A stretch of DNA of 64,000 bases from an uncultured SAR86 cluster bacterium (GTDB taxonomy: Bacteria > Pseudomonadota > Gammaproteobacteria > Magnimaribacterales > D2472): positions 1-64,000 of the forward strand of contig CABZRR010000001.1 in NCBI GenBank assembly GCA_902528215.1, in the 5' to 3' direction. How positions within the stretch are numbered: position 1 is the stretch's first letter; each line of letters opens with the position of its first letter. Below, one piece after another: positions 51,761 through 64,000 of this stretch. The notes under the pieces are model-generated. The model had not been told where the DNA came from. It ran no database searches and worked only from the letters and a program-made list of their open reading frames with translations. Both the position numbers and the translations under genes were made by a program.

Positions 51761-52325
51761 AATTTTATACCTGCACGGATTTGCTTCTTCTGCTAATTCA
51801 ACAAAAGCTAACTTAATAAATACTTTTATTAAAAAGAATACCAAAGCAACTCAGATTTTAATTCCAGATTTAGATAATGATATAGAAAGTGCATACCATC
51901 AAATTGATTTAATTATAAAAAAAGAATCTCCTTCATCTATTCTTGGAAGCTCTTTAGGTGGTTTTTATGCTACATATTTTTCAGATAAGTATAACCTTCT
52001 ATGTGTAAATATTAATCCAGCCGTTCCACCAATAGATATGTCAATGTACTTAGGTGAGAATCAAAATTTTTCCACAGGTGAGAAATTTGTTGTTAGTAAA
52101 CATCACCTAGATTTGCTTGAAACAATGAGTCAGAAAATTCAATCTTTAAATAGAACTAAAAATTTTTTGACCTTAATTCAATCCGGTGATGAGGTTCTGA
52201 ATTATAAAAATGCAATAAAATATTTTGCTGCTAGTCGAGTTGAGATTAAATTTGGTGGGAATCATTCATTTGTGGAATTTGAAAAATACTTTACAAAAAT
52301 AAAAAGATTTTTAAATTTGCGTTAA
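51753..52325 (+). CDS. yqiA: YqiA-like esterase
   Basis: ILYLHGFASSANSTKA; ILGSSLGGFYATY; GGNHSFVEFEKYF. Confidence 0.88.
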   Translation: MGKILYLHGFASSANSTKANLINTFIKKNTKATQILIPDLDNDIESAYHQIDLIIKKESPSSILGSSLGGFYATYFSDKYNLLCVNINPAVPPIDMSMYLGENQNFSTGEKFVVSKHHLDLLETMSQKIQSLNRTKNFLTLIQSGDEVLNYKNAIKYFAASRVEIKFGGNHSFVEFEKYFTKIKRFLNLR

Positions 52326-52458
52326 GTTGCTTGATTATAAAAATGCAATAAAATATTTTGCTGCTAGTCGAGTTGAGATTAAATTTAGTGGAAATCATTC
52401 ATTTGGGGACTTTGAAAGATACTTTACAAAAGTAAAAATATTCTTAAATTTGCACTAA
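52201..52458 (+). repeat. Tandem partial duplication (period 133 bp) of the yqiA 3' end
   Basis: 52201-52325 and 52334-52458 align without gaps; first 53 bp identical, 10 substitutions in the remaining 72 bp. Confidence 0.95.
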
Positions 52459-52467
52459 TATTATTCA
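52451..52467 (+). promoter_or_regulatory. Candidate distal NtrC site (imperfect)
   Basis: TGCACTAATATTATTCA versus NtrC consensus TGCACYAWWWTRGTGCA (14/17). Confidence 0.45.
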
Positions 52468-52502
52468 TATTTTATCGTCATGCTCTATAATTAATCTAAT
52501 CT

Positions 52503-52519
52503 TGCACAAATAGTGTGCA
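52503..52519 (+). promoter_or_regulatory. NtrC-type binding palindrome
   Basis: TGCAC-AAATAGT-GTGCA: perfect half-sites with 7-bp spacer, upstream of a glutamine synthetase-ntrBC cluster. Confidence 0.8.
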
Positions 52520-52525
52520 ACAATA

Positions 52526-52543
52526 TTGGCATAAATGTTGCAT
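52526..52543 (+). promoter_or_regulatory. Sigma54 -24/-12 promoter
   Basis: TTGGCAT-AAATG-TTGCAT matches TTGGCAC-N5-TTGCW with correct GG/GC spacing. Confidence 0.85.
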
Positions 52544-52589
52544 CTAGAATAAGGCACGTAAGAATTTTAAATATTTAAGGAGAAAAAGA

Positions 52590-53570
52590 ATGTCAAAATA
52601 CAAAACATATGAATACATCTGGCTTGATGGTTATCAACCAGAGCCGTTCATGAGAAGCAAAGTTAAAGCAACAGATTCGGATACTCCTCCTGATTGGTCT
52701 TTTGACGGCTCATCAACACAACAAGCTGAAGGTGGAAGCTCAGATTGCCTTCTTCTTCCAGTTCAAACTTATGAAAATCCAAATGGCCATGATTTAGTTA
52801 TGACCCAAGTTCAAGCAGCTGATCATACTGCTCACCCCTCCAATTTTAGGGCAGCAGCTGCCGAGGTTGTAACAGATGACTGGTGGTTTGGATTTGAACA
52901 GGAATTTTTCTTTACTGACCCTGAAACAGGCGAACCTCTTGGATGGGAAAATGGAGAGCCTAGAGCACAAGGAGAATTTTATTGTGGTGTAGGAGCCGGA
53001 AATGTTGTTGGCAGAGAAATTTCTGATCATCATCTTCAGGCTTGTCTTGATTTAGGAATCACACTTACAGGAACAAATGCAGAAGTTGCTCTCGGTCAAT
53101 GGGAATATCAATGTTTTGGTACTGGAATTAAAGCAGCGGATGACCTATGGATTAGTAGATATCTTCTTTACAAAGTTGCAGAAGAGTATGGCGTTGGTGT
53201 AAACATTCATCCAAAACCAAAAACTGGTGATTGGAATGGTTCCGGAATGCACACCAATTTTTCTAACGAAGAAATGAGATCAAAAGGCTCGGAAGAATTG
53301 TTTTCGTCATTGTGCGACAAACTTGGTGAAGTTCATGAAGAAGGAATTGCTGCCTATGGCTCTGACAATGATATGAGATTGACAGGTCTTCATGAAACTC
53401 AAAGCATTGATCAATTCTCATATGGAGTAAGCGATAGAGGAGCTAGTATAAGAATCCCAGTATATACAGTAGAGCATAACTGGAATGGTTATTTAGAGGA
53501 TAGAAGGCCTGCTTCAAATGCAGATCCATATAAAATTTTAGCCCACATTGTTGGAACTCTTACTAAATAG
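52590..53570 (+). CDS. glnII: Glutamine synthetase, type II (GSII, eukaryote/rhizobial GlnII-like)
   Basis: YEYIWLDGYQP; WSFDGSSTQQAEGGSSDCLL; WFGFEQEFFF; NAEVALGQWEYQ; WNGSGMHTNFS; LTGLHET; GVSDRGASIRIP; YLEDRRPASNADPY; 326 aa. Confidence 0.95.
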   Translation: MSKYKTYEYIWLDGYQPEPFMRSKVKATDSDTPPDWSFDGSSTQQAEGGSSDCLLLPVQTYENPNGHDLVMTQVQAADHTAHPSNFRAAAAEVVTDDWWFGFEQEFFFTDPETGEPLGWENGEPRAQGEFYCGVGAGNVVGREISDHHLQACLDLGITLTGTNAEVALGQWEYQCFGTGIKAADDLWISRYLLYKVAEEYGVGVNIHPKPKTGDWNGSGMHTNFSNEEMRSKGSEELFSSLCDKLGEVHEEGIAAYGSDNDMRLTGLHETQSIDQFSYGVSDRGASIRIPVYTVEHNWNGYLEDRRPASNADPYKILAHIVGTLTK

Positions 53571-60133: not shown

Positions 60134-60304
60134 TTATGCTGACCAGCTTACACCGCGATAAATACCGCTTGATGGTTTAGCTGACTTGCTTAGTTTTAAA
60201 GCATTATATTTAGCACCTCTATAATTCAATACTTTATCAACAGCTGAGCTGTGATTAGTATTGTTTTGGCGAGTTACTTTAATGCCTCTGTAGTACGAAG
60301 TCAT
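60134..60304 (-). CDS. 56-aa DUF4278-like YRG-repeat protein (start revised to MTSYYRG at 60304)
   Basis: MTSYYRGIKVTRQNNTNHSSAVDKVLNYRGAKYNALKLSKSAKPSSGIYRGVSWSA*: three YRG motifs; strong SD GGAGG 5 nt before ATG. Confidence 0.85.
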   Translation of the reverse strand: MTSYYRGIKVTRQNNTNHSSAVDKVLNYRGAKYNALKLSKSAKPSSGIYRGVSWSA

Positions 60305-60366
60305 ATTAGCCTCCAGTTTTCGTCGATTAAAATAATATATCTTTCGATATACACCAATTAACAACG

Positions 60367-60413
60367 CGTTCCTTCAGTATCATTACCTACTTCCGTCTCT
60401 TTCGAGATGAACG
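60367..60413 (-). promoter_or_regulatory. Glutamine riboswitch aptamer 2 (proximal to the gene)
   Basis: RNA CGUUCAUCUCGAAAGAGACGGAAGUAGGUAAUGAUACUGAAGGAACG; P1 CGUUC/GAACG, P2 UCUC-GAAA-GAGA, P3 GGUA-AUGA-UACU, conserved GACGGAAGUAG and GAAGGAACG. Confidence 0.88.
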
Positions 60414-60419
60414 ATAATG

Positions 60420-60474
60420 CGTTCCTTCGTCTTGCGACTACTTCCGTCCTAATTTGAACAAACTAGGATGAACG
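60420..60474 (-). promoter_or_regulatory. Glutamine riboswitch aptamer 1 (promoter-proximal)
   Basis: RNA CGUUCAUCCUAGUUUGUUCAAAUUAGGACGGAAGUAGUCGCAAGACGAAGGAACG; same P1 and core, different but base-paired P2 (UCCUAGUUU/AAAUUAGGA) and P3 (GUC-GCAA-GAC). Confidence 0.88.
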
Positions 60475-60559
60475 AAATACATATATTAAATAATTTTAAA
60501 AAAAATTACAAAATTGTAGATAAAATTTAAACATAGTTATTTTTCTCTAACATTATTTG

Positions 60560-63114: not shown

Positions 63115-64000
63115 ATGAGTATTCAACATGTAAGTGCAGATACAGACTTAGACAGTATTTTAGAAATCATTGATCATGACGCAGCAGTCGTGATTGATAA
63201 TGTTTTATCTGAGGGCGATCTAATTGAAATTCAAAATGAACTTCAGCCCTTCCTCAATAATGATATTGAAGGTGACAATGAATTTACAGGATTCCAAACA
63301 AAAAGAGTTGGCGCTCTTATGGCTAGATCTCCAAAATGTCGTGAGCTTGCTCTTAATCCTAAAATCAATGCTTTATCAAAAAAGTTTTTAGAGCCTCACT
63401 GTGATGGTTATCAGCTTCATTTCACATCAGCAATACAGATAGGTCCAAAAGAAACTGCTCAAATCCTTCATAGAGATAGAGGCGTTTGGGGTGGTTATGT
63501 ACCACGAAAAATTGAAACACAGTTTGCTACTGTCTGGGCAATTACAGATTTCACAAAAGAAAATGGAGCAACTCAGGTTGTGCCTGGATCTCATAAATGG
63601 GATAAAAACAGGATGCCTTTAGACGAAGAAATTGAAAGCGCCGAAATGACTGCTGGATCAGTATTTATTTATACTGGCTCTGTTATTCATGGGGGCGGAG
63701 CTAATCAAACTTCAAAAAACAGACTAGGCGTTTTTCTGCACTATGCACCTAATTGGTTACGACAAGAAGAGAATCAGTACCTGTCATGCCCTCCCTCAAT
63801 TGCAAAGGATTTGTCTCCTGAATTAAGAGATTTAATGGGTTATTCTCAAGGAGGCTATGTGCTTGGATTTTTTACTGATCCAACAGATACCGAAGGTAAG
63901 TTTGAGTCAGTATCCCCGAAAAAATTATTTGGAGAAGATGTTGATCCATTTAAAATTGGATCGTCTGAAGAGCTTTTAGATAGTTCAACCAAAAAAAATT
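63115..64000 (+). CDS. Phytanoyl-CoA dioxygenase family protein, 3'-truncated by window edge (absent from ORF track)
   Basis: Open frame from ATG 63115: MSIQHVSADTDLDSILEIIDHDAAVVIDNVLSEGDL...ILHRDRGVW...NGATQVVPGSHKW...GSVIHGGGANQT. Confidence 0.88.
   Translation, partial: MSIQHVSADTDLDSILEIIDHDAAVVIDNVLSEGDLIEIQNELQPFLNNDIEGDNEFTGFQTKRVGALMARSPKCRELALNPKINALSKKFLEPHCDGYQLHFTSAIQIGPKETAQILHRDRGVWGGYVPRKIETQFATVWAITDFTKENGATQVVPGSHKWDKNRMPLDEEIESAEMTAGSVFIYTGSVIHGGGANQTSKNRLGVFLHYAPNWLRQEENQYLSCPPSIAKDLSPELRDLMGYSQGGYVLGFFTDPTDTEGKFESVSPKKLFGEDVDPFKIGSSEELLDSSTKKN

Follow-up and report, generated by a model that had tools for sequence, protein, structure and literature searches.

Most known glutamine riboswitches come from cyanobacteria and marine metagenomes, and a 2018 review describes the class as restricted to cyanobacteria, environmental sequences aside (PMC6316151). 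According to the same source, the gifB and type 2 glutamine switches are activated by glutamine, and the GS inactivating factor IF17 has an N-terminal part that is homologous to DUF4278 and was reported to be dispensable for GS inactivation. Tandem arrangements have been described as well: PMC2864571 reports tandem glutamine riboswitches in 2010, and PMC9481103 counts 157 doublets and 4 triplets in marine metagenomes.

The locus considered here provides such riboswitches with a host. It lies in a stretch of 64,000 nucleotides from an uncultured SAR86 cluster bacterium (the window), analysed at its full length. We believe, with a probability of about 0.75, that the leader of a small DUF4278 gene in this window is a tandem RF01739 riboswitch in which the linker and the P3 stem of the second copy would couple the two aptamers, glutamine would switch translation on, and the encoded protein would dampen nitrogen assimilation. 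The features of the locus, in the order of the transcript, are as follows.

60416-60476, minus strand: glutamine aptamer copy 1 (RF01739; cmscan 62.4 bits, E = 2.1e-11)
60413-60419, minus strand: linker strand CAUUAUC, proposed strand of the coupling helix, complementary to 60381-60387
60363-60415, minus strand: glutamine aptamer copy 2 (RF01739; cmscan 59.9 bits, E = 1e-10)
60381-60387, minus strand: GGUAAUG, the 5' strand and loop of P3 in copy 2 (a P3 start specific to this copy), partner of the linker
60321-60366, minus strand: post-aptamer hairpin P4, CGUUGUUAA...UUAAUCGACG, with the apical part UAUAUC-GAAA-GAUAUA, predicted in all folds
60310-60316, minus strand: Shine-Dalgarno (SD) motif CUGGAGG, read from the sequence; the start codon is at 60302-60304
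60134-60304, minus strand: DUF4278 gene, 56 aa with three YRG motifs (PF14105, 30.2 bits against a cut-off of 25.3)

The initial annotation had proposed two glnA-type glutamine aptamers 6 nt apart on the minus strand, in front of a DUF4278 gene. All of this is borne out: the Infernal scan of the whole window returns RF01739 twice on that strand, both scores being above the gathering score of 35, the P1 helices are separated by 6 nt in the sequence, and the gene matches PF14105. The P2 and P3 stems are also present in both copies as they had been written. Copy 1 has P1 CGUUC/GAACG, a long P2 UCCUAGUUU/AAAUUAGGA and P3 GUC-GCAA-GAC; copy 2 has P2 UCUC-GAAA-GAGA and P3 GGUA-AUGA-UACU; and both contain the RF01739 core CGUUCA / ACGGAAGUA / GAAGGAACG together with the P1-P2-P3 junction. 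These two matches are the only ones in the genome. RF01704 (type 2, Downstream-peptide) has no match at the gathering threshold within the window, and none was reported in the other loci scanned.

Judged by comparison between genomes, the tandem leader is real and selected, as the initial annotation had also maintained. Two congeners (G069 and G074) share the locus; their aptamers and platform are identical to those of the window at 167-168 of 170 positions (98-99%), compared to 95-98% for the DUF4278 coding sequence and 82-84% for the upstream 90 nt, and purifying selection therefore acts on the leader. That the copies are decayed or chance aptamer-like sequence would agree with the folding z-score of only -1.46, by which thermodynamic folding alone fails to set the leader apart; the case for the element rests on homology and conservation. 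Covariance model scores of 60-62 bits and the conservation of the leader relative to its upstream flank refute this explanation, which we regard as practically negligible. With both the class and its tandem form described before, the window element is a new member of it.

Two expectations of the initial annotation did not hold, namely that the host lineage is exceptional and that the compact tandem is unusual. RF01739 occurs in 95 of the 203 SAR86-order genomes; a core scan of GTDB contigs also finds it in Alphaproteobacteria (SAR11- and SAR116-type), a Porticoccaceae MAG and many cyanobacteria, and the class is present in other gammaproteobacterial MAGs and in phage contigs. We found no published report of the class in SAR86 in the literature searched, many subscription papers being outside its scope. 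The compact layout is recurrent: 41 distinct leaders are tandems whose linkers measure at most 11 nt; they originate from SAR86, Porticoccaceae, other bacterial MAGs and viral contigs and nearly all precede small-protein genes. Tandem glutamine aptamers spaced by 17-18 nt were also noticed in marine Alphaproteobacteria (L036, L045, L059, L067 and similar loci), in front of Amt-like (by eye) and ATP-grasp-like genes.

The 41 short-linker leaders suggest how the two copies may be connected. The strand CAUUAUC comprises the 3' flank of copy 1 and the first base of P1 in copy 2, and its pairing with GGUAAUG appears in both the MFE and the centroid folds predicted for the free window leader. Of the second copies, 38/41 have a P3 starting with GGUAAU, GGUGAU or GGCAAU, as opposed to none of the 41 first copies and 6 of 189 single aptamers. 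Across leaders the two strands change together (CAUUA/UAAUG, CAUUG/CAAUG, UAUUA/UAAUA, and CAUC with GGUG). With leaders taken as independent and relatedness uncontrolled, the pairing energy averages -3.86 kcal/mol for own partners versus -2.35 +/- 0.29 kcal/mol for re-paired leaders (reached in 0 of 20,000 permutations), at three of the seven pairs both bases change and the pairing is preserved, and the covariation score is reached in 0 of 500 shuffles. We infer from these sequences a mutually exclusive helix that would physically couple both copies; such a helix in short-linker tandems looks new.

We hold it possible, while leaning the other way, that the two aptamers are independent and uncoupled (pseudo-cooperative) and that the complementarity is an artefact of the shared ancestry of a transferred leader. 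Tandem glutamine switches are described as pseudo-cooperative in PMC9481103; 17 of the 41 leaders share the linker CAUUAUCAU, so that the independent changes are few; and the pairing shifted to the +3 register also gives a high pair count. Against this explanation are the double changes preserving three of the seven pairs, the near restriction of the GGUAAU-type start to second copies, and the two leaders whose linkers have no CAUU strand (L205 and L254), in which AAUG of P3 is altered as well. If the copies are coupled, CAUUAUC would pair with GGUAAUG without glutamine and hold copy 2 misfolded; glutamine bound to copy 1 would rearrange its 3' flank, leaving copy 2 free to fold and bind, and this would give a steeper glutamine response. 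For cooperative sensing, a suggestion of the initial annotation, the covarying helix may supply an anatomical basis, and it provides a concrete hypothesis that can be addressed by mutation.

The direction and level of the switch concern the region 3' of the aptamers, which is homologous in tandem and nested (see below) SAR86 leaders and in phage leaders, its pairing partners being changed. In the window, P4 abuts P1 of copy 2 directly, and the strand that follows P1 forms P4 instead of an anti-SD pairing. The fold predicted for the leader leaves the SD free, although part of it can pair with the coding sequence once this is added. The predicted SD accessibility in the window is about equal with P1 favoured and penalised (0.31 and 0.36), and this comparison gives no consistent ON or OFF signal in the DUF4278, glnA or nested leaders. 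Two other pairings with the SD were considered and dropped: CCUC of the nested domain pairs with it in some folds, not consistently, and the P2 strand of copy 1, noticed by eye, lacks conservation among the congeners.

Sister cassettes whose leaders are short have, immediately 3' of P1, a strand complementary to the SD region. The pairing energy is -5.3 for own partners versus -3.9 +/- 0.16 for permuted ones, and the strands change together (CAUCU/AGAUG, CACCC/GGGUG, CACUC/GAGUG, CAAUCU/AGAUUG). Because of this complementarity and covariation, translational control in these cassettes is well supported. They use one sensor for tiny proteins that are unrelated, and carry an anti-SD strand right after P1; this arrangement looks new.

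We presume from homology that the window leader is most likely a glutamine ON switch, since glutamine turns on the related gifB and type 2 switches. It is unlikely, in our opinion, that it is an OFF or transcription-level switch lowering DUF4278 at high glutamine: such a switch would be compatible with an SD predicted to be similarly open in both states, but the homologous switches rise with glutamine (PMC6316151), and searching the leader's sense strand revealed no intrinsic terminator. With the ON direction, the glutamine-bound leader would increase DUF4278 translation, and the small protein would dampen nitrogen assimilation at plentiful glutamine.

The DUF4278 match spans residues 1-53 of the 56-aa protein, and its three YRG motifs account for 9 of the 10 columns invariant among 24 cyanobacterial, phage and SAR86 homologues. 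A PDB search found no solved structure matching DUF4278; the AlphaFold2 model consists of three beta-hairpins (pLDDT 74, pTM 0.23) and gives no fold usable for comparison. Compared to IF17 (GifB), the N-terminal DUF4278 part is present in the window protein and the C-terminal GS-binding IF7-like part is absent. Considering that the DUF4278-like part of IF17 was reported to be dispensable, a role as a GS inhibitor is not implied for the window protein; judged from its control, it is likely a nitrogen-excess effector. The initial annotation had suggested seeking the cassette in related SAR86 genomes. A profile search finds DUF4278 in 21 of the 203 genomes, and RF01739 precedes it at 20 of the 21 loci, the exception being one genome (G156, locus L343).

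Outside the tandem cases, the SAR86 DUF4278 leaders have a second architecture: a single aptamer in which a conserved domain of 55-95 nt takes the place of the P3 loop, ordered as AGGAAAACCUC, a variable hairpin, AGCWAGUACC, a variable hairpin and GGGAACGAGACCGA. Its AGUA and GAA strands resemble a bulged-G (sarcin-ricin-type) module. The outer and middle helices covary (9/17 pairs with double changes; score 0.306 versus 0.118 shuffled), and no other Rfam 15 family was reported in the domain. Searching with a covariance model, we find the domain in 42/203 SAR86 genomes, the window genome not being among them; every SAR86 copy examined sits inside a glutamine aptamer, and the gene that follows, where readable, is almost always of the YRG-repeat (DUF4278) type. 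In five divergent genomes of the g14 group the automatic choice fell on another frame. Searching viral contigs with the pattern of the insert alone gives 21 loci; each is nested and precedes a DUF4278-type ORF. The nested cassettes are the loci L342, L345-L361 and L383-L422 in SAR86 and L362-L382 in viral contigs.

No stand-alone copy of the domain outside glutamine aptamers was found in the 21 viral contigs or the 203 SAR86 genomes. Nor was the domain found in 369 sampled gammaproteobacterial genomes save one SAR86 genome, or among 339 genomes drawn from the phylum around a cyanobacterial locus, a search that had no positive control. Compared as sequences, the nested P3 domains of SAR86 and viral aptamers look new, and we consider them a candidate new RNA element common to SAR86 and phages. 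It is tempting, although rather doubtful, to regard the domain as a separate ligand-binding aptamer that would make the DUF4278 leader a two-input device (glutamine and a second metabolite), the second coupled aptamer of the window being an alternative solution on the same gene. The domain may instead stabilise the aptamer or bind a protein. As a separate observation, a PhyH gene adjoins the nested DUF4278 cassette at six loci (L385, L388, L390, L391, L394, L396; f2 and g12), and these PhyH genes are 61-63% identical to 63115-63999 of the window, which suggests a partly shared neighbourhood.

The cassette contigs checked carry T4-type phage genes (tail sheath, terminase, major head protein, portal), and in two of the loci (L250, L375) the cassette lies directly 3' of the major head gene. 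The gp23 major head protein of one nested-cassette contig is 66% identical to gp23 of the Methylophilales phage Melnitz and 64% identical to those of cyanophages. BLAST found neither the cassette nor its protein in GenBank phages, and the nested leader has no blastn match in 50,697 phage records.

The aptamers of SAR86 precede a broader set of genes: glnA of the GSII and GSI types, the gene of the outer-membrane protein gcw_chp, TonB-receptor-like, gltB and ATP-grasp genes, and genes for several small proteins that are unrelated and 43-71 aa long. These class names were assigned by eye from sequence, except for gcw_chp, DUF4278 and the DUF4177-like 71-aa protein, whose DUF4177 match is just under the cut-off. 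Tiny proteins of 71, 54, 46 and 43 aa replace DUF4278 behind the aptamers according to the SAR86 genus (L267-L280, L281-L298, L316-L319 and L329), and the 46-aa ..NPFYP family is found in viral contigs too (L163, L174, L205, L220).

The window itself contains nitrogen genes about 4 kb from the DUF4278 cassette.

52590-53570, plus strand: glnA (GSII-like), the only Gln-synt_C match in the genome
53649-56106, plus strand: ntrB-like histidine kinase (HisKA/HATPase_c) and ntrC-like regulator (by eye), following glnA

No aptamer precedes this glnA. Upstream of it (52500-52545), a sigma-54-like TTGGCATAAATGTTGCA and an inverted repeat TTGCACAAATAGTGTGCAA were noted by eye, consistent with NtrC control; between a 190-aa ORF and this glnA, an imperfect direct copy of the ORF's end was also noted by eye (52200-52325 versus 52330-52460). 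None of the 203 SAR86-order genomes has a match to GlnE (PF03710, the GS adenylyltransferase), the controls being positive. To our knowledge GSII is not a GlnE substrate; hence this absence is suggestive only and may simply follow from the use of GSII. An abundant ocean lineage with no GlnE match in 203 genomes apparently runs RNA-based nitrogen control. Depending on the lineage, its targets are glnA, gltB, the gene of an outer-membrane protein, TonB-like receptors or one of several unrelated tiny proteins.

Among the known systems, the type 1 switch (glnA motif, RF01739; gifB of Synechocystis) shares with the window the aptamer core, the structure and a downstream gene containing DUF4278. The window differs from it in the gammaproteobacterial host, the tandem copies and the complementarity between linker and P3, as well as in a stand-alone 56-aa DUF4278 protein instead of IF17 and a long hairpin between aptamer and SD. 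The type 2 switch (RF01704) of marine picocyanobacteria precedes small ORFs, including DUF4278, and is glutamine-activated (PMC6316151), whereas the window copies match RF01739. For the marine-metagenome tandems, the accessible portions of PMC2864571 and PMC9481103 describe no SAR86 assignment, inter-aptamer helix or nested P3 domain that we could find. The Methylophilales phage Melnitz likewise carries a glutamine switch (PMC9004378); unlike the nested cassettes, which precede DUF4278-type genes, that switch is associated with tmRNA.
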